Of a DNA stretch of 64,000 nt, positions 22,620 through 32,299 are shown in pieces (the first letter of the stretch is position 1; each line of letters opens with the position of its first letter). A model generated the notes under the pieces. The model saw only the letters and a program-made list of their open reading frames with translations, was not told where the DNA came from and ran no database searches. This stretch comes from Azonexus fungiphilus (lineage in GTDB: Bacteria > Pseudomonadota > Gammaproteobacteria > Burkholderiales > Rhodocyclaceae), in the NCBI RefSeq assembly GCF_003634965.1, contig NZ_RBXP01000014.1, forward strand, positions 62,001 through 126,000. Direction: 5' to 3'. A program made the position numbers and the translations under genes.

Positions 22620-23048
22620 ATGACCACCGCCGAATCCGCCACCCCCGTCGCCAACGACAAGCCCGTCGATGTCCGCAGCCTGCTCAAGGACCTGCAAAGC
22701 CGCTTCGATGTCTTCCGCAACTACAGTCCGCTGGCCATCGGCATCGACAAGCAGCTGTTCGCCGCGCTGCCCGAGGTGAGCAAGAAGTCGGTCCGCCTGG
22801 CGATGCGCAGCCACACGATGGCGACGCGTTACCTGCGCGAGATGGAAAAGGCGACGCACCGTCTCAACCTCGACGGCAGCCAGGCCGGCGAAGTCACCGA
22901 CGAAAACCGCCAGCACGCCGCCGAACTGCTCAAGGAGCGCTTCAAGAAGCAGGCCGAGCAGCGCAAGGCCCAGGAGGCCGCGGCCAAGGCCGAGGCGGTC
23001 AAGCAGAAGAAGCTGCTCGAACTGGCGGAGAAATTCGGCCGCAAGTAA
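22620..23048 (+). CDS. ProQ/FinO-domain RNA chaperone
   Basis: A small RNA-binding protein of 142 residues. The ProQ/FinO fold covers about residues 15-90 (KDLQSRFDVFRNYSPLAIGIDKQL, then VRLAMRSHTMATRYLREM), the minimal-type domain of neisserial and betaproteobacterial ProQ. The C-terminal third is a charged Ala/Lys/Glu helix (KKQAEQRKAQEAAAKAEAVKQ), likely an RNA-binding tail. It would bind sRNAs and mRNA 3' ends. Its stop codon TAA is the first part of a perfect 16-base palindrome of the dispersed repeat. Confidence 0.9.
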   Translation: MTTAESATPVANDKPVDVRSLLKDLQSRFDVFRNYSPLAIGIDKQLFAALPEVSKKSVRLAMRSHTMATRYLREMEKATHRLNLDGSQAGEVTDENRQHAAELLKERFKKQAEQRKAQEAAAKAEAVKQKKLLELAEKFGRK

Positions 23049-23061
23049 CGGTCGACCGTTA
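23046..23061. repeat. perfect palindromic copy of the ACGGTCGAC repeat
   Basis: TAACGGTCGACCGTTA is a perfect 16-base palindrome that includes the proQ stop codon. It is followed by AAATTCCCGGGTTTTTC, so it may act as part of a terminator. Confidence 0.75.
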
Positions 23062-23220
23062 AATTCCCGGGTTTTTCACCCCTTGACTGCCGGCCTTGCG
23101 CCGGCAGTTGCGTTTGGGCGACGCAAAAACGCAGGGGCTTGCCCGGTTGTCCGCCGGGCCTGCTTCGGCGCGCCCCAATCTGGTTAATTCCGGCAGCGAC
23201 ACGCCCCGGTCGAGTGCGTT

Positions 23221-23230
23221 TTGCATGCAA
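23221..23230. promoter_or_regulatory. putative GntR operator 1
   Basis: TTGCATGCAA, a perfect 10-base palindrome followed by TCC. FCD-type GntR repressors commonly bind 10-12 base palindromes of the form TTGTATACAA, so this is a candidate site for the regulator encoded at 28974. It lies upstream of the AT-rich promoter patch. Confidence 0.5.
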
Positions 23231-23353
23231 TCCTGCGGCGCTTTTTCCGCCCCGGCGGCGGCAGCTGATTTTCCGGCAAAGAACAATCTGCAAATTTTTT
23301 TATATCCAACAGTTCTTTAGGAAATACATTCCGGAACCCCGTTGAATTGGCAC

Positions 23354-23365
23354 ATTGCATGCAAT
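23354..23365. promoter_or_regulatory. putative GntR operator 2
   Basis: ATTGCATGCAAT, a perfect 12-base palindrome 33 bases before the substrate-binding protein start and just downstream of the AT-rich promoter patch, where a bound repressor would block transcription. A third, imperfect copy (TTGCATGCAG) is at 23471-23480 inside the signal-peptide coding region. Confidence 0.6.
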
Positions 23366-23398
23366 CTCCCAAGTGTTTTCACCCCTTTGGAGATCCAC

Positions 23399-25009
23399 AT
23401 GACCCCCCAATTCACCAAGCTTTCACGCTGGCTGGCGGCGCTTCCCCTGGCCCTCACCCTGCATGGCGGTTTGCATGCAGAAACCGTCGCCCGCTACGGC
23501 ATTTCCATGGCCGACATTCCGCTGACCACCGGTCAGCCGGATCGCGGTGCCGGTGCCTACCAGTTCACCGGCCACACCCTGTACGACCCGCTGGTCGCCT
23601 GGGAGGCCAACGTCGGCAATCGTCCGGGCAAGCTGGTGCCGGGCCTGGCCAGCGAGTGGAAGGTCGATGCCAAGGACAACAAGAAATGGCTCTTCACGCT
23701 GCGCAAGGGGGTCAAGTTCCACGACGGTTCCGAGTTCAATGCCGACGCCGTGGTCTGGAACCTCGACAAGGTGCTCGCCGACAAGTCGCCGCAGTTCGAT
23801 GCCAAGCAGAGCGCCCAGGTGCGCCCGCGCATTCCGTCGATTGCGTCCTATCGCAAGGTCAATGACTACACGGTCGAGATCACGACCAAGGAAATCGACG
23901 CACTGTTCCCTTACCAGTTGCCGTGGTTCCTGATTTCCAGCCCGACGCAGTGGGAAAAGATGGGCAAGGACTGGAACAAGGTCGCCAGCAAGCCGTCCGG
24001 CACCGGTCCGTTCAAGCTCGACAAGCTGGTGCCGCGCGAGCGGGCCGACCTGGTCAAGAACACCGCCTACTGGGACAAGGCGCGCATGGCCAAGACCGAT
24101 CGCATCGTGCTGGTGCCGATTCCCGACGCGATGACCCGCGCCAACGCATTGCTCAACGGCCAGGTCGACATCATCGAAACGCCGCCGCCCGATGTCCTGC
24201 CGCAGTTGAAGGGCGCCGGCTTCAAGCTGGTGCAGAACGTCACGCCGCACGTATGGCCGTATCACTTCTCGACCCAGCCCGGTTCGCCGTGGACCGACAT
24301 CCGGGTGCGCAAGGCCGCCAACCTGGCGATCGACCGCAGTGCGGTGGTCAGCCTGATGAGTGGCCTGGCGACGCCGGCCAAGGGCCAGCTCGACCCGACC
24401 AGCCCGTGGTTTGGCAAGCCGGAATTCAAGATCGGCTACGACCTGCCGGCCGCCCGTGCCTTGATGGCCCAGGCCGGCTACAGCCAGGCCAAGCCGCTCA
24501 AGGCCAAGGTCATCATCGCCCAGGGCGGCACCGGCCAGATGCTGTCCTTGCCGATGAACGAGTTCATCCAGCAGAGCCTGGCCGAAATCGGCATCCAGGT
24601 GAGCTTCGAAGTGGTCGAGCTGGAAAACCTCTACCTGCACTGGCGTAGCGGTGCCAAGGCCGACATGAACGCCGGCAAGGGGATCACCGCGATCAACCTC
24701 GGCTATGTCACCGCCGACCCCTTCTACGCGCTGACCCGCTTCGCCGACAGCCGTTACGTGGCGCCGAACGGCGTGAACTGGGGCGGCTACAACAACCCCA
24801 AGGTCGATACCGCGCTTGATCAGGTGCGCACCACCTTCGATACCAAGAAGCAGGACGGGCTGCTCTCCTTCGTCCATCAATCCATGGTCGATGACGCGCT
24901 GATGCTGTGGGTGGTGCATGACGTCAATCCGCATGCCATCTCGCCCAAGGTCAAGGAGTTCGTCCAGGCCCAGCACTGGTTCCAGGACCTGACCACCATC
25001 CGCATGTGA
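23399..25009 (+). CDS. peptide-type ABC transporter substrate-binding protein (SBP family 5)
   Basis: A periplasmic solute receptor of 536 residues. The N-terminus MTPQFTKLSRWLAALPLA… is a signal peptide likely cut after LHA (residues 21-23). The mature protein has the family-5 pattern: LYDPLVAWE, then LASEWKVDAKDNKKWLFTLR with KFHDGSEFNADAV, the signature of oligopeptide/dipeptide/nickel/glutathione binding proteins. The ATG at 23399 has GGAG 6 bases before it and begins directly at the signal; an upstream in-frame ATG at 23342 has none. It is first in an operon with two permeases, two ATPases, a GntR regulator and a GGT-family enzyme, so the ligand is probably a peptide or gamma-glutamyl compound. 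Confidence 0.9.
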   Translation: MTPQFTKLSRWLAALPLALTLHGGLHAETVARYGISMADIPLTTGQPDRGAGAYQFTGHTLYDPLVAWEANVGNRPGKLVPGLASEWKVDAKDNKKWLFTLRKGVKFHDGSEFNADAVVWNLDKVLADKSPQFDAKQSAQVRPRIPSIASYRKVNDYTVEITTKEIDALFPYQLPWFLISSPTQWEKMGKDWNKVASKPSGTGPFKLDKLVPRERADLVKNTAYWDKARMAKTDRIVLVPIPDAMTRANALLNGQVDIIETPPPDVLPQLKGAGFKLVQNVTPHVWPYHFSTQPGSPWTDIRVRKAANLAIDRSAVVSLMSGLATPAKGQLDPTSPWFGKPEFKIGYDLPAARALMAQAGYSQAKPLKAKVIIAQGGTGQMLSLPMNEFIQQSLAEIGIQVSFEVVELENLYLHWRSGAKADMNAGKGITAINLGYVTADPFYALTRFADSRYVAPNGVNWGGYNNPKVDTALDQVRTTFDTKKQDGLLSFVHQSMVDDALMLWVVHDVNPHAISPKVKEFVQAQHWFQDLTTIRM

Positions 25010-25072: not shown

Positions 25073-26026
25073 ATGTTTGCCTACATCATCAAGCGTCTGC
25101 TCTACGCCATCCCCATCGCGCTGAGCGTGACGGTGGTTTCCTTCGTGCTCGTCTATCTGGCGCCGGGCGATCCGCTCAATGCCATCGCCCCGGCTGACGC
25201 GCCGGAAGAGGTCATCGTTGCCCTGAAGAGTGCCTACGGCCTCGACAAGCCGGTGCCGGTGCAATACGGCCTGTGGCTGCTGCGTGCCGTGCAGGGCGAC
25301 CTCGGCACCTCGATCGCTTCCGGGCGTGCCGTCACCGCCGAAGTGCTGAGCGCCGTCAGCAACACGCTGCTGCTTGCCGGCATGGCGGCACTCGGCGGCG
25401 TCCTGATCGGCTGCATCCTCGGCGCCCTGGCAGGCTACCGCCACGGCACCTGGATCGACCGCGTCGCCACCGTCGTTTCGGTGATCGGCGTCAGCATTCC
25501 CCACTACTGGCTGGGCCTCGTGCTGACCATCGTCTTTTCCATCTGGCTGCCCTGGTTTCCGGCGATGGGCGCAGGCCCCGGCGGTTCTTCCGAATGGCTG
25601 TGGGATGTCGAACACCTGCGTCACCTGGTGCTGCCGGCGCTGACCCTGTCGGTGATCCCGATGGGCATCATCACCCGCACCGTACGCGCCCTGGTCGCCG
25701 ACATGCTGGAGCAGGAGTTCGTCGCCGCACTGCGGGCGCGCGGCCTGTCCGCCATCGCCATCTTCCGTCACATCGCCAAGAACACCGCACCGACCGTGCT
25801 TGCCGTCGCCGGCCTGCAGATAGGCTACCTGATGGGCGGCTCGATCCTGGTCGAGACCGTCTTCGCCTGGCCGGGCACGGGTTTCCTGCTCAATACCGCG
25901 ATCTTCCAGCGTGACATCCCGCTGCTGCAGGGAACCATCCTCGTGCTCTGCATGTTCTTCGTCGTCCTCAACCTGCTGGTGGACATCCTGCAACCGCTGA
26001 TCGACCCGCGCATGGGCCGCGGCTGA
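25073..26026 (+). CDS. peptide-type ABC transporter permease (DppB-like)
   Basis: The first inner-membrane permease of the ABC importer, 317 residues with six membrane helices. The N-terminus MFAYIIKRLLYAIPIALSVT is the conserved first helix of DppB/OppB proteins, and the EAA loop that contacts the ATPase is visible as VAALRARGLSAIAIFRHIAKN. It begins after the UUCG hairpin region and is followed 13 bases later by the second permease. Confidence 0.93.
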   Translation: MFAYIIKRLLYAIPIALSVTVVSFVLVYLAPGDPLNAIAPADAPEEVIVALKSAYGLDKPVPVQYGLWLLRAVQGDLGTSIASGRAVTAEVLSAVSNTLLLAGMAALGGVLIGCILGALAGYRHGTWIDRVATVVSVIGVSIPHYWLGLVLTIVFSIWLPWFPAMGAGPGGSSEWLWDVEHLRHLVLPALTLSVIPMGIITRTVRALVADMLEQEFVAALRARGLSAIAIFRHIAKNTAPTVLAVAGLQIGYLMGGSILVETVFAWPGTGFLLNTAIFQRDIPLLQGTILVLCMFFVVLNLLVDILQPLIDPRMGRG

Positions 26027-26039
26027 ACGGAGACTATCG

Positions 26040-26936
26040 ATGTCTGCTTCTCTTGAACTTTCCCTGCCGGCCGCCGCCGTAGCCGCTCAGGCCCCGAGCC
26101 GCAGCTACTGGCTGGTCGTCTGGCGCCAGCTGCGGCACGATCCGATGGCGCTGGCCGCCGGCCTGGTCCTGCTGATCATCATCGGCGCCGCCGTCTTCGC
26201 GCCCTGGCTGGCGCCGGCCGATCCCTTCAAGGCGAGCATGATCAAGCGCCTGCTGCCGATCGGCAGCCCCGGCTTCCTGCTCGGCACCGACGAGCTCGGC
26301 CGCGACATGCTCTCACGCTTGATGCATGGGGGGCGCCTGTCGCTGCTCATGGGCGTCGTACCGGTACTCGCCGCCTTCGGGATCGGCACCGCGATCGGCC
26401 TCTTTGCCGGCTACGTCGGCGGCAAGGTCAACATGGTCATCATGCGCGTCCTCGACGTGTTCTACGCCTTCCCCTCGGTGCTGCTCGCCGTGGCGATTTC
26501 CGGCGCGCTCGGGCCGGGCATGAGCAACAGCCTGCTGGCGCTGACCCTGGTCTTCGTGCCGCAGGTGGTGCGGGTCGCCGAAAGCGTCACCACCCAGGTG
26601 CGCCAGCTCGATTACATCGAGGCGGCACGAATGAGTGGTGCCAGCGCCTTCTCGATCATCCGCGTACATGTGCTGGGCAACGTCCTCGGTCCCGTCTTCG
26701 TCTATGCCACCGGTCTGCTCAGCGTCAGCATGATCCTGGCGTCCGGACTCTCCTTCCTCGGCCTTGGCGTCAAGCCGCCGGAGCCGGAGTGGGGCCTGAT
26801 GCTCAACACGCTGCGCTCGGCGATCTACGTCAATCCCTGGATCGCGGCACTGCCCGGTGCGCTGATCTTCATTACTTCCATCGCATTCAATCTGCTTGCA
26901 GATAGCGTGCGCTCGGCCATGGACATCCGTCGATGA
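26040..26936 (+). CDS. peptide-type ABC transporter permease (DppC-like)
   Basis: The second permease, 298 residues. A cytoplasmic N-terminal tail precedes the first helix; LGTDELGRDMLSRLMHGGRLSL is the DppC/OppC signature, and the EAA loop reads YIEAARMSGASAFSIIRVHVL. The C-terminus has LSFLGLGVKPPEPEWGLML, typical for the subfamily. Its stop overlaps the ATG of the first ATPase by four bases. Confidence 0.93.
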   Translation: MSASLELSLPAAAVAAQAPSRSYWLVVWRQLRHDPMALAAGLVLLIIIGAAVFAPWLAPADPFKASMIKRLLPIGSPGFLLGTDELGRDMLSRLMHGGRLSLLMGVVPVLAAFGIGTAIGLFAGYVGGKVNMVIMRVLDVFYAFPSVLLAVAISGALGPGMSNSLLALTLVFVPQVVRVAESVTTQVRQLDYIEAARMSGASAFSIIRVHVLGNVLGPVFVYATGLLSVSMILASGLSFLGLGVKPPEPEWGLMLNTLRSAIYVNPWIAALPGALIFITSIAFNLLADSVRSAMDIRR

Positions 26937-27997
26937 ATACCTCTTCCTACTCCCAGGCCCCGGTTCAGGACCGGGGCGGTCCAGCCCAGCCGCTGCTGAT
27001 TGTGCGCAATCTCAAGAAGCACTTTGCCGTGCGCGGCCAAGCGCTGGAAAAGACCAGAAAATACGTCCATGCAGTCGATGGCGTCAGCTTCTCGGTGCCG
27101 AAGGGCAAGACGCTGGGCATCGTCGGCGAATCGGGCTGCGGCAAATCGACCACCGCCCGCCTGATTGCCCGCCTGATGCCTGCCGATTCGGGCAGCATGG
27201 TGTTCGATGGCGAGGGCGTCGACGAATTCGGAGGCATCCGCCTCAAGGAGTTCCGGCGCAACTTGCAGATGGTTTTTCAGGATTCATTTGCTTCCCTCAA
27301 TCCTCGACTGACCATCGCCGAAACCATTGCCTATGGGCCTTGCGTGCACGGCATGCCGAAGGCGGCGGCAATGCAGCAGGCGCATGCACTGCTGGCACGC
27401 GTCGGACTGGAGCCCGCGCAGTTCGCCAGCCGCTATCCGCACGAGTTGTCCGGCGGCCAGCGCCAGCGCGTCAATATTGCCCGGGCGTTGGCCTTCGATC
27501 CGCGCCTGGTGATTCTCGACGAGGCCGTCGCGGCACTCGACAAGTCGGTGCAGGCGCAGGTGCTCAACCTGTTGCAGGAACTCAAGGCCGAGCGCCAGCT
27601 GACCTACCTGTTCATCTCGCACGACCTGCACGTGGTGCATTACATCTCGGACTACGTAATGGTGATGTATCTCGGCCAGGTCGTCGAAACCGGCCCGGTC
27701 GAGCGCATCTACGGCCAGGCGGCGCATCCCTACACGCGGGCGCTGCTTTCCGCCGTGCCATCGATGGATCCTGAGCGGCGGACGCAGGCCTCCCCGCTCG
27801 CCGGCGACCCTCCCAACCCGATCAACCCGCCGGGCGGCTGCCGCTTCCGCGACCGCTGTCCGCATGCCGATCCGGTGTGTGCCAGCCACGCACCCATATT
27901 GCTCGGCTTGCCCGGCGAGCCGGCACATCAGGCTGCCTGTCATCTCAATGACCCGGCTTCGGGGCATCCCGCTGCTCTTTCGGAGGTTCAATCATGA
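26933..27997 (+). CDS. peptide-type ABC transporter ATPase (DppF/OppF-like)
   Basis: One of two ATPases of the importer, 354 residues. Walker A GESGCGKST (about residues 65-73), signature LSGGQRQRVNIARAL, Walker B LVILDEAVAALD and the switch histidine in FISHDLHVV are all intact. The C-terminal extension GCRFRDRCPHADPVC is the cysteine-containing tail of peptide transporter ATPases. Walker B is followed by EAVAALD instead of the usual EPTSALD, a mild deviation. ATGA overlap with the permease; its own stop overlaps the next ATPase start by four bases. Confidence 0.93.
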   Translation: MNTSSYSQAPVQDRGGPAQPLLIVRNLKKHFAVRGQALEKTRKYVHAVDGVSFSVPKGKTLGIVGESGCGKSTTARLIARLMPADSGSMVFDGEGVDEFGGIRLKEFRRNLQMVFQDSFASLNPRLTIAETIAYGPCVHGMPKAAAMQQAHALLARVGLEPAQFASRYPHELSGGQRQRVNIARALAFDPRLVILDEAVAALDKSVQAQVLNLLQELKAERQLTYLFISHDLHVVHYISDYVMVMYLGQVVETGPVERIYGQAAHPYTRALLSAVPSMDPERRTQASPLAGDPPNPINPPGGCRFRDRCPHADPVCASHAPILLGLPGEPAHQAACHLNDPASGHPAALSEVQS

Positions 27998-28974
27998 CGA
28001 CACCCCTGGTATCCCTGCAGGATTTGTCGGTGCAGTTCTGCGGCAACCGCAAGGCGAGTGCGTTGAACGAGGTCAATATCGAACTGGCGGCCGGCGAAGT
28101 GCTCGGCTTGCTCGGCGAGTCCGGTTCGGGCAAGAGCGTGACGCTACGCACCTTGCTGCGCCTGCATCCGGAGCGGACGACGAAAATCCGGGGTCGGATG
28201 CTGGTCGACGGTCAGGATGTGCTTGCCCTCAAAGGGCGGGCGCTCGAGCTATATCGCGGCGGCACGGTTTCCATGGTCTTCCAGGAACCGGGCCTGGCTT
28301 TCGATCCGGTCTACACCGTCGGTCAGCAGATCACCGAAGCGATCCGGGCCCACGAGTCGGTCACAGAGCAGGCCGCGCGCGCCCGGGCGCTGCTGATGCT
28401 CGAACGGGTGCAGATTCCGCAGGCAAAGCGGCGTTTCGATGCCTATCCACACGAACTTTCCGGTGGCATGCGTCAGCGCGCGATGATCGCGCTGGCACTG
28501 GCCTGCCAGCCCAAGCTGCTGCTCGCCGACGAGCCGACGACGGCGCTCGATGCCACGGTACAAATCCAGATCCTGTTGCTGTTGCGTGAGTTGCAACGCG
28601 AAACCGGCATGTCGGTGATTTTCGTGACCCACGACATCGGTGCCGCCGTTGAAGTCGCCGACCGCATTGCCGTGATGTATGCAGGACGAATTGTCGAGCA
28701 GGGGCCGGTCGGACAGCTTGTCCGGGCACCACGTCATCCCTACACGGCCGGTTTGCTGGCCGCCACGGTCGGTACGGAAAACCGGGGGCAGCCGCTAATG
28801 GCGGTGCCCGGTTCGCCGCCGGACCTGGCCGCTTTGCCCCCGGGCTGCAGCTTCGCGCCTCGGTGCAAGCATGCCGATGAAGCTTGCCGGTCCCGGGTGC
28901 CGCCACTCCTTTCCTCTGCGGGGCAGGCCGTGGCTTGCTGGCATCCGTTGATGCCTCTGGCGGAGGCGGCCTGA
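27994..28974 (+). CDS. peptide-type ABC transporter ATPase (DppD/OppD-like)
   Basis: The second ATPase, 326 residues. Walker A GESGSGKSVTLR, signature LSGGMRQRAMIALAL, Walker B LLLADEPTTALD and FVTHDIGAAVEVADRI are intact, and GCSFAPRCKHADEAC gives the cysteine-bearing C-terminal tail. GGAGG lies before ATG 27994. With its partner it forms the heterodimeric motor of the importer. Its stop shares a base with the GntR start. Confidence 0.93.
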   Translation: MTTPLVSLQDLSVQFCGNRKASALNEVNIELAAGEVLGLLGESGSGKSVTLRTLLRLHPERTTKIRGRMLVDGQDVLALKGRALELYRGGTVSMVFQEPGLAFDPVYTVGQQITEAIRAHESVTEQAARARALLMLERVQIPQAKRRFDAYPHELSGGMRQRAMIALALACQPKLLLADEPTTALDATVQIQILLLLRELQRETGMSVIFVTHDIGAAVEVADRIAVMYAGRIVEQGPVGQLVRAPRHPYTAGLLAATVGTENRGQPLMAVPGSPPDLAALPPGCSFAPRCKHADEACRSRVPPLLSSAGQAVACWHPLMPLAEAA

Positions 28975-29690
28975 TGAGCATCCTTTCCTTGGAGGCTGCG
29001 CGCAGTCGGGGCGGGCTGGCTGATGATGTCTGTCGCCATATTGCCGACGAAATCGTGCTCGGCAATCTGGCGCCTGGTTCGCGGCTCGACGAAGTCGGCC
29101 TCGCTGCCCGCTTCAACGTTTCGCGGACGCCGGTGCGCGAAGCGCTCAAGCAGCTCGCCATCATGGGCCTGGTCGATACCCGGCCGAACCGCGGTTCGGT
29201 CGTTGCCGAACTGACCGTCGACCAGCTCGACCAGATGTTCGAAGCGATCGGCGAGCTGGAAGCTGCTTGTGCTCGTCACGCCGCTTTACGCATGACCGAG
29301 GAGGATCGAAGCCGGATGCGCGAGCTGCACGCCGAGGGACGCGCGGCGATGCAGGCGGGCGATATCGATCGCTACGATGCGGCCAACCTGGAGTTGCACG
29401 CAACGATCATCCGCGGTTGCTACAACCCGGTACTGATCGATCTGGCGACCAGCCTGCGCTATCGCGTTTCACCCTTCCGCCGGACGCAGTTCCGCAATCT
29501 CGAGCGGATGGGTGAGTCCTTCGAAGAGCATTCGGTGATTGTCGAAGCCATCCTTGCCCACGATGTCATCACCACTTACCGGGAGATGCGCTCGCATCTG
29601 CTCTCGGCTCGCAGCGCAACCAATCGTGTTGCGCCGGCCTGGGGTCTCCCGTCCACCAGCAAACAAAACTTGAAGGGCGAATCGGCATGA
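28974..29690 (+). CDS. GntR-family repressor with FCD ligand domain
   Basis: A 238-residue regulator. The N-terminal winged helix (about residues 10-75) has SRLDEVGLAARFNVSRTPVREALKQL, the GntR signature; the helical FCD domain follows (EAIGELEAACARHAALRMTEED, ANLELHATII, SFEEHSVIVEAI) with metal-ligand-type Asp and His residues. FCD regulators usually sense organic acids or related metabolites. The gene lies inside the operon it probably controls, overlapping the ATPase stop by one base and the GGT start by four. The TTGCATGCAA palindromes upstream of the operon are its likely operators. Confidence 0.9.
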   Translation: MSILSLEAARSRGGLADDVCRHIADEIVLGNLAPGSRLDEVGLAARFNVSRTPVREALKQLAIMGLVDTRPNRGSVVAELTVDQLDQMFEAIGELEAACARHAALRMTEEDRSRMRELHAEGRAAMQAGDIDRYDAANLELHATIIRGCYNPVLIDLATSLRYRVSPFRRTQFRNLERMGESFEEHSVIVEAILAHDVITTYREMRSHLLSARSATNRVAPAWGLPSTSKQNLKGESA

Positions 29691-31276
29691 AACCCATCCT
29701 CGCAACCCGTGGCGCCGTTGTCGCCTCGCATTCCCTGGCGGCCCAGGCCGGCCTCGACATCCTGCGCGACGGCGGCAATGCCATTGAAGCGACCATTGCC
29801 GTTGCCGCCACCCTCGCGGTGGTCTATCCACACATGACCGGCATCGGCGGCGACGGCTTCTGGCTGATGCATGCGCCGGGCCAGCCGATGCGCTCGATCG
29901 ATGCCTGTGGCGCGGCCGGTGCCGGCGTCACCCGCGAACTTTACGGCAGCTTGACGAGCATTCCCTGGCGCGGCCCGCTGGCTGCCAATACGGTGGCCGG
30001 TACGCTCTCCGGCTGGGGCGCGGCCTACGAATTCAGTCGCCGCGAGTGGGGCGGTCGGCTGCCTTTCGCCCGCCTGCTCGAAAGCGCCATCCACTATGCG
30101 CGGGAAGGCTTTCCGGTCACTCACAGCCAGGAAGAAAACACCCGCAACAAATTGGCGGAACTGCAGGCCCAGCCCGGCTTCGCCGACGCATTCCTGGCCG
30201 ATGGCAAGGTTCCGGCCTATGGTCAGCGCCATCGTTTCCCGGCCCTGGCAGCGACTCTCGAACAGCTGGCGCGGGCCGGTGCCGACGATTTCTATCGCGG
30301 CGAACTGGCGCAGCAGGTTGGCGCCGACCTGGCCGCCGTCGGCAGTCCGATTACGGTCGCCGATCTCGCCCGTCACCAGGCTGAAATCAAGGCGCCGCTC
30401 GAGGTGAAGTTGTCCTGCGGCAAGGTCTACAACATGGCGCCGCCAACCCAGGGCCTGGCATCGCTGCTCATCCTCGGCATCTACGACCGCATCCGCCAGG
30501 CCGGCTGGAATCCGGACAACGTCGAAGGCATCCATGCGCTGGTCGAAGCCACGAAGCAGGCCTTCATCGTGCGCGACAAGTACGTCACCGATCCGGCGGC
30601 GATGCAGATCGATCCATCCGGTCTGCTTGGCGACTCGACCGTGGCTGCGCTGGCGGCAGCCGTGCCTTTCGACAAGGCCAGTCCGTGGCCGGCGCCGAAC
30701 TCCGATGGCGACACCACCTGGATGGGTGTCGTCGATGCCGAAGGCCGTGCGGTGAGCATGATCCAGAGCATCTACTTCGAATTCGGCAGCGGCGTCGTCC
30801 TGCCGCAGACCGGCATCTGGTGGCAGAACCGCGGCTGCTCCTTCGGTCTGCGGCCGAACCAGTTGCGCAGCCTGGCGCCGGGGCGCAAACCCTTCCACAC
30901 GCTGAACCCCGCGATGGCGCGCCTCGACGACGGTCGCCTGCTGGTGTACGGCACGATGGGGGGCGAAGGCCAGCCGCAGACGCAAGCGGCGATCTTCTCG
31001 CGTTATGTCTGGGGCGGCCACAATGTCCGTTCGGCGGTTGCCGCACCGCGCTGGTTGCTGGGCCGGACCTGGGCGGAGCAGAGTACGAGCTTGAAGCTGG
31101 AGTCGCGCTATGCGCCGGAAATCATCGACAAATTGCGCGCGCTAGGCCACCCGGTTGAAGTGGCTGGCGATTTCGACGAGCGCATGGGGCACGCCGGGGC
31201 GCTGGTCCTGCATCCGGATGGCTGGATCGAGGGCGGCGAAGATCCGCGCAGCGACGGCTGTGTCGCGGCCTGGTAG
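29687..31276 (+). CDS. gamma-glutamyltransferase-family Ntn hydrolase
   Basis: A 529-residue member of the self-cleaving GGT family, which covers gamma-glutamyltransferases, acylases and oxamate amidohydrolase. Early family motifs: ATRGAVVASHSLAAQAGLDIL, GGNAIEATIAVAAT and TGIGGDGFWLM. The autoprocessing site should be Thr343 in GDTTWMGVVD; true GGTs usually have TTHFSVVD there, so Trp replaces the usual His. The small-subunit part continues with AVSMIQSIYFEFGSGVV and FHTLNPAM. There is no signal peptide, so unlike E. coli GGT it should work in the cytoplasm, on the compound brought in by the neighbouring importer. AAGGG lies before ATG 29687. Confidence 0.87.
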   Translation: MKPILATRGAVVASHSLAAQAGLDILRDGGNAIEATIAVAATLAVVYPHMTGIGGDGFWLMHAPGQPMRSIDACGAAGAGVTRELYGSLTSIPWRGPLAANTVAGTLSGWGAAYEFSRREWGGRLPFARLLESAIHYAREGFPVTHSQEENTRNKLAELQAQPGFADAFLADGKVPAYGQRHRFPALAATLEQLARAGADDFYRGELAQQVGADLAAVGSPITVADLARHQAEIKAPLEVKLSCGKVYNMAPPTQGLASLLILGIYDRIRQAGWNPDNVEGIHALVEATKQAFIVRDKYVTDPAAMQIDPSGLLGDSTVAALAAAVPFDKASPWPAPNSDGDTTWMGVVDAEGRAVSMIQSIYFEFGSGVVLPQTGIWWQNRGCSFGLRPNQLRSLAPGRKPFHTLNPAMARLDDGRLLVYGTMGGEGQPQTQAAIFSRYVWGGHNVRSAVAAPRWLLGRTWAEQSTSLKLESRYAPEIIDKLRALGHPVEVAGDFDERMGHAGALVLHPDGWIEGGEDPRSDGCVAAW

Positions 31277-31324: not shown

Positions 31325-32299
31325 ATGAAATTCAAATTCGACTGGTTTCTCAAGGGCATGCTGGTTGCCGTCGCCCTGGCGTTCATCTGGCCGTCGCCGG
31401 GTGCCAAGGGCGGCTTCCTGCATCCGGAACTACTCAACAAGATCGGTATCGCCCTGGTTTTCTTTCTCAACGGCCTGGGCCTTTCGCTGGCCTCGCTCAA
31501 GGATGGTGCGCTGCGCTGGAAGGTGCATTTGCTGATTCAGGCCAGCACCTTCCTGATCTTTCCCGGCCTCGGCTGGTTGTTGCTCATGGCTTCCACTGGC
31601 TGGATGTCGGCCGACCTGCAGCTGGGGTTTTTCTACCTCTGCGCGCTGCCGTCCACCGTTTCGTCATCGGTTGCACTTACCGTTGCGGCTCGCGGGAATG
31701 TGCCGGTAGCCGTCTTCAATGCCACGCTGTCGAGCTTGATTGGCGTCGTCCTGACGCCGTTCTGGATGGCCTGGATTCTTGGCAGTAGCGGCGCCGTTTT
31801 CGATGTCTGGCCGGTCATCGTCGACCTGTTGCTGTGGCTGGTTCTGCCCCTGGTCCTGGGGCAGCTCTTGCGCCCTGTGCTGGCTGGCTGGGCTGGTCGT
31901 CATAAAAGCCGCATCCAGGTGGTGGACCGGCTGACCATCCTGACCCTGGTTTACACCTCTTTTGCCGATACGGTGAAAGAGGGGGTCTGGTCCAGCTATG
32001 GTCCGCTCATCCTGCTGGAAACCGTTGTCGGCAGCGTGCTTCTCTTTGCCATCGTACTGGTGTTGACCCGGTTGCTCGGCCGCTTGTTCGGCTTGCCGAT
32101 CGAGGACCGGATCGCCGCGGTTTTCTGCGGCTCGAAAAAGACGCTCGCGTCCGGTGTGCCGATGGCGCATCTCATCTTCGGGGCCAATCCGGCGCTTGGA
32201 TTGATCCTGATGCCGATCATGATCTACCACCCCTTGCAACTGGCTGTTGGAGGCGTGCTGGCGCAACGCTGGGCGGAACGGGGGGCGGCTGAGTCTTAG
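31325..32299 (+). CDS. BASS/SBF-like transporter (YfeH type)
   Basis: A 324-residue inner-membrane protein with about nine or ten helices of the bile acid:sodium symporter-like family (SBF-like). Recognisable stretches are FFLNGLGLSLASLKDGALRW in the second helix region, LCALPSTVSSSVALTVAARGNVPVAVFNA (the crossover motif) and FCGSKKTLASGVPMA. It follows the GGT gene on the same strand after 48 bases and probably belongs to the operon, where it could export or take up a breakdown product. Substrate is inference only. Confidence 0.85.
   Translation: MKFKFDWFLKGMLVAVALAFIWPSPGAKGGFLHPELLNKIGIALVFFLNGLGLSLASLKDGALRWKVHLLIQASTFLIFPGLGWLLLMASTGWMSADLQLGFFYLCALPSTVSSSVALTVAARGNVPVAVFNATLSSLIGVVLTPFWMAWILGSSGAVFDVWPVIVDLLLWLVLPLVLGQLLRPVLAGWAGRHKSRIQVVDRLTILTLVYTSFADTVKEGVWSSYGPLILLETVVGSVLLFAIVLVLTRLLGRLFGLPIEDRIAAVFCGSKKTLASGVPMAHLIFGANPALGLILMPIMIYHPLQLAVGGVLAQRWAERGAAES

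Follow-up and report, generated by a model that had tools for sequence, protein, structure and literature searches.

Before and within the first gene of a transporter operon of Azonexus fungiphilus, in a stretch of 64,000 nucleotides of contig NZ_RBXP01000014.1 (the window, meaning the whole stretch analysed, with positions counted from its first letter), there are three copies of a ten-base palindrome. Judging from their sequence and distribution, these palindromes very probably serve as operators for the operon's own GntR regulator of the FCD type, and the second of them lies on the -12 box of a putative sigma-54 promoter. Altogether, there are good grounds to believe that the three operators act on this sigma-54 promoter, which would be activated by a protein of the NtrC type and freed from its repressor by a substrate. 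Two perfect palindromes and an imperfect third, with centres about 134 and 116 bases apart, had been described in an initial annotation, and direct matching locates them at those positions, with 134 bp between the centres of operators 1 and 2 and 116 bp between those of operators 2 and 3; the third begins 72 nt past the ATG at 23399 of the first gene. The annotation took them for operators of the in-operon regulator, which agrees with what follows, and placed the promoter in the AT-rich patch, where it does not seem to be: the sigma-54 element coinciding with palindrome 2 and the NtrC-like box beside palindrome 1 had both been overlooked.

The same annotation proposed a genome-wide search for further palindromes, and this search found only two exact copies of TTGCATGCAA in the whole genome (3,546,071 bases), both at this operon. 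About 1.2 copies per genome are expected from the base composition of the window, and the chance of two random copies falling within 134 bp of each other is about 8e-5. With up to one mismatch, there are 45 sites in the genome (the two exact ones included) and four in the window against 2.07 expected, a number that is not significant since 17 of 100 shuffles reach it. Site 3 alone is not significant by count, and its support comes from its codon pattern. The degenerate form TTGYATRCAA occurs at five sites in the genome, two at the operon, one at C3:169673 and a pair at C4:103644 and C4:103816 that adjoins a different FCD gene; considering the exact sites only, we take the regulator to be a local one.

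Conservation was examined by scanning genome contigs with the regulator alignment, which gave 41 loci. In 28 of them the first gene is present with at least 330 nt upstream, making 29 promoters with the window; in the remaining 13, the sequence retrieved does not include the first gene, or misses its start or the DNA upstream of it. These promoters are partly non-independent (e.g., L088/L089, L091/L102, L094/L095 and L093/L096), and five of them come again from the genomes of L039-L043, which are counted once. In the 29 promoters, exact TTGYATRCAA is found 36 times in 9,309 upstream positions and never in 552,289 other positions, and with up to one mismatch 58 times upstream versus 25 elsewhere. 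At that same tolerance, 25 of the 29 have an operator beyond -100, and in 21 an operator overlaps the -12 box.

The element under palindrome 2, TGGCACATTGCATGCA, shows the GG, ten bases and GC typical of sigma-54 promoters, whose consensus is TGGCAC-N5-TTGCW (GG-N10-GC with TGGCAY-N5-nTGCW), and it predicts a transcription start at about 23374. A match of this kind means little by itself, because TGGCAYRNNNNNTGCW is about as frequent in the genome, both strands counted, as its reversed control (24 versus 20); the evidence is its conservation. In this regard, [TC]TGGCA[CT][AG]TTGCATGCAAT was invariant in the first six operons compared (the window and L039-L043), and all 29 promoters have TGGCAY-N6-TGC between positions -49 and -64 relative to the first gene, once the start of the first gene of L090 was corrected to 4406; the core is found in L113 too. 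The genome carries rpoN (PF04552 match, 223 bits).

Operators and sigma-54 promoter are separable. Four loci (L070, L071, L083 and L090) keep the -24/-12 core and have lost the overlapping palindrome, which in four Curvibacter loci (L093-L096) has decayed to TTGCATGCT. In locus L073, which has the regulator and the SBF gene but not the transporter operon, TTGCATACAA and TTGTATGCAA persist at a distance of 135 bp, and that strand contains no sigma-54 core anywhere in the locus. Where no orthologous first gene precedes the regulator (L072 and L085), TGGCACG...TGC and operator-like sites stand ahead of the regulator itself, and in L087 it is another gene, about 2.8 kb away from the regulator, that has TTGTATGCAA in front of it. 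As side observations, the Curvibacter regulators are found roughly 1.6 kb past the point where the match to the first gene starts, in loci where the tblastn table has no related permease or ATPase gene. Moreover, three loci, from Limnohabitans, a Comamonadaceae and an uncultured Burkholderiales genome (L074 316-344, L075 4405-4433 and L079 4406-4434), have an extra TTGCATGCAA immediately before the -24 box, 19 bp ahead of the copy overlapping the -12 box.

A natural control was provided by an operon without the regulator. Orthologues of the family-5 extracellular solute-binding protein (SBP) were searched for in 399 genomes of the order, with four matches (the own genome, G020, G602 and G458), and in 369 genomes of the class, where the own genome was the sole match. 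G458 has the five transporter genes (60-81% identity), but the 19 kb examined contain neither the regulator nor a gamma-glutamyltranspeptidase, and the best regulator match of that genome (42% identity) is on a different contig. Its promoter still reads TGGCATG-TTTT-CTGC at -60, with an NtrC-like GGCACC-GAAAG-GGTGCG (10 of 12) located 121 nt upstream of the -24 box, but no operator with up to one mismatch occurs within 600 nt upstream. In G602 the regulator is present and so are the sites, TTGCATACAA and TTACATGCAA, 135 bp apart. The palindromes are assigned to the in-operon regulator because they go with the regulator gene, are absent in G458, and because TTGCATGCAA is contained in a published footprint of an FCD protein, at least in the passages of that paper at hand (PMC4609117).

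With respect to activation, a degenerate NtrC-like box adjoins operator 1. All 4096 six-letter words W were scored as W-N5-revcomp(W) between -260 and -140 of 28 promoters (L090 left out), and TGCACC, the NtrC consensus, ranked first, with a mean of 9.29 matches out of 12 (all words, 7.02; sd 0.39), as compared with rank 2121 in a control stretch from -140 to -60. With spacers of 3 and 7 the top words, GCACCA and ATGCAC, were the same element shifted, and spacers of 4 and 6 were without a comparable peak. Close relatives (L062, L063, L077 and L081) have boxes with 10-11 matches out of 12, and ntrC is present in the genome (TIGR01818, 683.4 bits, above cut-off). As a positive control, in one P-II locus of the own genome (L107) a box with 11 of 12 matches is found 80 bp from TGGCACGGCTCCTGCT, the pair lying roughly 1 kb ahead of the P-II gene; no such pair is seen at the two remaining P-II loci of the genome.

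From these sequences we infer binding and repression by the regulator, activation by NtrC, a possible loop and an inducer, in the following scheme. Transcription of the operon would start from the sigma-54 promoter with its -12 box within palindrome 2, and its activator in this gene family, NtrC or a different protein that uses the same box, would act from a position immediately upstream of palindrome 1. In the absence of inducer, the regulator on operator 2 would exclude the sigma-54 RNA polymerase, and operator 1, by the enhancer box, together with operator 3 (about +98 to +107) would strengthen repression, perhaps via DNA looping. The regulator would be released by an inducer, which we presume to be a peptide or a gamma-glutamyl compound, so that transcription would need nitrogen limitation and substrate together. 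As the regulator gene is in the operon, autoregulation would follow if the operon is one transcript.

Autoregulation by looping, through binding of the regulator to the palindromes, was the mechanism favoured by the initial annotation; the operator role stands on the grounds given above, whereas looping is only possible. Distances between operators 1 and 2 fall into five groups (114-115, 123, 134-136, 145 and 209-210 bp), taking the site at 134 in loci with several upstream sites (L074, L075, L078 and L100) and omitting L085 (118 bp, neither site on a -12 box). A helical phase common to the five groups has a P of 0.019 at 10.5 bp and of 0.049 over periods of 10-11 bp, with the values grouped after seeing the data, and it is suggestive of looping or of binding to the same face of the DNA. 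A serious competitor, to which we give somewhat less than even chances, is that the regulator binds all three sites and these act independently without any loop, by steric block at operator 2, interference with the enhancer at operator 1 and a roadblock at operator 3. The wide range of the spacing (114-210 bp) and the four promoters without an upstream site with up to one mismatch speak for such independent action, as does the contact of operator 1 with the NtrC-like box, which is expected for local competition; it is the similar helical phase that speaks for a loop instead.

The third site falls inside the coding sequence and calls for separate consideration, since it encodes Leu-His-Ala before Glu at the likely cleavage site of a signal peptide and could be a mere by-product of that sequence. 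In 13 loci encoding Leu-His-Ala with site 3, chosen for this test after the site had been seen, CAT and GCA are invariant (13/13) and TTG occurs in 11, even though in those loci GCA represents 5.5% of the Ala codons and TTG 10.8% of the Leu codons. Moreover, of 37 columns with Ala in all 13 loci seven use a single codon, which is GCC in six and GCA only here. In locus L099 the identical peptide is encoded by CTG CAC GCC and the site is absent, so that the palindrome is not imposed by the peptide. On the other hand, the site is missing from this place in 16 of the 29 loci, two of which (L078 and L090) carry CTGCATGCAG a few codons earlier. We interpret the synonymous-codon pattern as selection acting at the DNA level, which makes site 3 probably a genuine operator in a subgroup; an origin as a by-product of the cleavage sequence seems unlikely, if still worth keeping in mind.

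A different protein could also be at work, if the palindromes bound an activator or some other DNA-binding protein and the in-operon FCD regulator acted elsewhere. Site 1 is indeed at enhancer distance, and the FCD protein Ms0535, whose footprint is of this kind, is described in the passages of its paper as an activator. Against this idea, which we judge quite improbable, the sites are absent in the regulator-less G458 and present in the transporter-less L073. Furthermore, in 17 loci with regulators of 41-46% identity (L022-L038), a site similar to TTGYATRCAA, with up to one mismatch, lies within 300 nt upstream of the regulator's own gene in every case (20 sites in 5,100 upstream positions versus 2 in 54,669 elsewhere). 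In 13 of these 17 it is within one mismatch of TTGTATACAA, and the other four show TTTCATGCAA or GTGCATGCAA. According to the passages of PMC4494728 on FadR-subfamily operators, TTGTATACAA is the usual FCD form and fits the TKGT/ACMA consensus. In the clade studied, the operator takes the C/G form TTGCATGCAA, with intermediates such as TTGTATGCAA and TTGCATACAA in relatives. The sites overlapping the -12 box keep in their right half the TGC needed by sigma-54, with TGT in the left half in L078, L091 and L102, and the upstream sites have TAC in the right half in L091, L102 and L113.

Slightly less credible still, an ordinary sigma-70 promoter in the AT-rich patch with TGGCAC as an operator flank would agree with the AT-rich stretch (about 23290-23330) between operators 1 and 2 and with the conservation of AAATACAT in it, but a simple consensus scan of 22900-23700 gave no sigma-70-like site and the TGGCAY/TGC spacing is exact in L070, L071, L083, L090 and G458, where the palindrome is gone. 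A terminator was likewise discarded, with 2 terminator-like sites in the same interval against 1.9 expected. By-eye comparison of AAATACAT with the patterns of integration host factor (IHF) sites, sigma-70 promoters and half-operators gave no convincing fit. The conserved element TTAGGAAATACAT, at a near-fixed distance before the -24 box and operator 2, scores 7 or more matches out of 9 at -27 to -29 in 27 of the 34 loci that carry the regulator, reaches at best 4 of 9 in G458, and is perhaps an extra half-operator; it is also kept where the sigma-54 box is missing (L073 and L087).

Several observations weigh against the interpretation of the palindromes as operators on an NtrC-dependent sigma-54 promoter. 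The -12 box of the window is ATGC and the consensus TTGC, and its NtrC-like box is no better than three other spots in the same 300 nt. Operator 2, with up to one mismatch, is absent in 8 of the 29 promoters and the upstream operator in 4. As the 28 relatives were found through the regulator, the co-occurrence of site and regulator comes partly from selection, and G458 is a single regulator-less case among the four SBP matches. Exact TTGCATGCAA occurs once in G275 and in G020, three times in G156 and G161 and four times in G130, one copy in each being at the orthologous promoter, so that exclusivity fails in G156, G161 and G130; the remaining exact sites of G161 and G130 are beside a different FCD gene (33% identity), and the motif by itself does not identify this regulator.

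Some of these additional sites form arrangements of their own. Three TTGCATGCAA, one TTGTATGCAA and one CTGCATGCAA are located upstream of the FCD GntR gene of 33% identity in Azoarcus G130 (L054 1296-1621), and a similar cluster occurs in G161 (L055), which makes cross-talk with the operon studied possible; in G156 two further exact sites are found away from the operon (L052 and L059). A second FCD/sigma-54 arrangement is present in the own genome, as read from its sequence (C4:103644-103825; L119 1501-1682, also L121). There, the region between an FCD GntR gene and a gene for a cytosine/purine/allantoin-type permease contains a sigma-54-like TGGCACGTTCGTTGCT enclosed by two TTGTATACAA sites with a spacing of 172 bp; after the FCD gene come genes resembling those for an Asp/Glu/hydantoin racemase and a polysaccharide deacetylase. 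No NtrC box above 9 of 12 was found upstream of this region.

Regulatory elements and genes of the operon, with their positions in the window
Feature	Position	Strand	Sequence	Basis or remark
Operator 1	23221-23230	.	TTGCATGCAA	exact match; genome count, conservation
Operator 2	23355-23364	.	TTGCATGCAA	overlaps -12 box; within ATTGCATGCAAT at 23354-23365
Operator 3 (probable, in a subgroup)	23471-23480	.	TTGCATGCAG	one mismatch; codons 25-28 of first gene
Putative sigma-54 -24/-12 element	23348-23363	+	TGGCAC-ATTGC-ATGCA	spacing, conservation, rpoN in genome
NtrC-like enhancer box, degenerate	23202-23218	+	CGCCCC-GGTCG-AGTGCG	8/12 to TGCACC-N5-GGTGCA
Conserved element	23317-23329	+	TTAGGAAATACAT	near-fixed distance before -24 box/operator 2
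Family-5 extracellular solute-binding protein (SBP)	23399-25009	+		PF00496
ABC permease, DppB-like	25073-26026	+		PF00528
ABC permease, DppC-like	26040-26936	+		PF00528, PF12911
ABC ATPase, DppF-like	26933-27997	+		domain search
ABC ATPase, OppD/DppD-like	27994-28974	+		domain search
FCD-subfamily GntR regulator, proposed binder of operators 1-3	28974-29690	+		PF00392 + PF07729
Gamma-glutamyltranspeptidase-like protein	29687-31276	+		PF01019
SBF-like transporter	31325-32299	+		PF13593

The operon is preceded by a ProQ/FinO-like gene ending at 23048. Its regulator combines a GntR winged helix (PF00392, 59.8 bits) with an FCD domain (PF07729, 93.0 bits), both exceeding their cut-offs, and the palindromic operator near the regulated promoter that is usual in the FCD family appears to be present by sequence. 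The canonical GT/AC operator core is missing in the window, where it is GC/GC, and relatives L068, L077, L081, L091 and L100 have a GT or AC core in one operator half. The GT/AC core is common and not universal among the FadR subfamily, with Ms0535 as a precedent for deviation (PMC4609117). In a by-eye reading of the alignment, the regulator has K59 and N72 where relatives of the TTGTATACAA type have I (or N) and R; these were discarded as specificity residues, given that the regulator of L054 has TTGCATGCAA sites and carries neither.

Sigma-54 promoters are usually described via their activators; in the present case, the -12 box itself seems to be occupied by a local repressor, and a subgroup has a further operator within the coding sequence. 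Regulator, operators, sigma factor and likely activator can be named for a putative peptide/gamma-glutamyl uptake operon, and natural variants that have lost operator, promoter or regulator separate the parts. If the scheme is true, peptide-uptake genes would be on only under nitrogen shortage and release of the repressor. More tentatively, and with a fair share of doubt, operator and -12 box may form one fused ten-base element, the clade operator having shifted from a TTGTATACAA-like form to TTGCATGCAA to serve both repressor and sigma-54; this would make a compact AND gate for nitrogen limitation and substrate, with a conserved coding-region operator and possible loops in which the repressor disturbs the contact between NtrC and sigma-54. 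The twin TTGTATACAA sites around a sigma-54-like element elsewhere in the own genome would be a repetition of this theme.

Among the papers listed in the literature searches, judged by titles and abstract openings, none evidently dealt with this operon or with an FCD regulator at a sigma-54 promoter, which is no proof of absence. Comparison with known systems is based on the passages at hand of the papers cited. FadR-subfamily operators are described as A/T-rich palindromes with TKGT/ACMA boxes and extra half-sites near the palindromes (PMC4494728), while in the window the boxes carry C/G in place of the inner T/A (TTGCATGCAA). In Mycobacterium smegmatis, Ms0535, a GntR regulator of the FadR subfamily, VanR-like and with an FCD-like domain, has a footprint CCTTGCATGCATTCTTGCATGCAAGG that includes TTGCATGCAA (PMC4609117). 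It resembles the window in these letters and in its own operon with a transporter gene; it differs in being an activator with two adjacent sites, and the passages mention no sigma-54 promoter. The FCD regulator Atu1419 of Agrobacterium fabrum binds ten-base palindromes, ATGTATACAT, over promoter elements; one of its promoters has a pair of sites separated by 190 bp, and a second promoter combines the palindrome with a degenerate site 109 bp away that falls within the gene (PMC7797058). The window shares with it the FCD regulator, the distant palindrome pair and the degenerate intragenic site, but the Atu1419 promoters are of the predicted -10/-35 type, its tetramer and loop were shown experimentally, and the passages contain nothing on sigma-54 or NtrC. 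The nearest working model by analogy is HutC at hutU: in Pseudomonas aeruginosa the footprint of HutC at hutU overlaps the site targeted by sigma-54, and NtrBC also activates the hut operon, as told for P. fluorescens (PMC12977541). As proposed for the window, a local repressor of the GntR superfamily lies there over a sigma-54 site and the nutrient is used as nitrogen source, although HutC belongs to the HutC subfamily and not to FCD, its site is TGTA-N2-TACA, and the passages describe no three-site layout with an operator fused to the -12 box. Altogether, the window holds a real feature, for the most part accounted for by known kinds of parts in an unusual combination.

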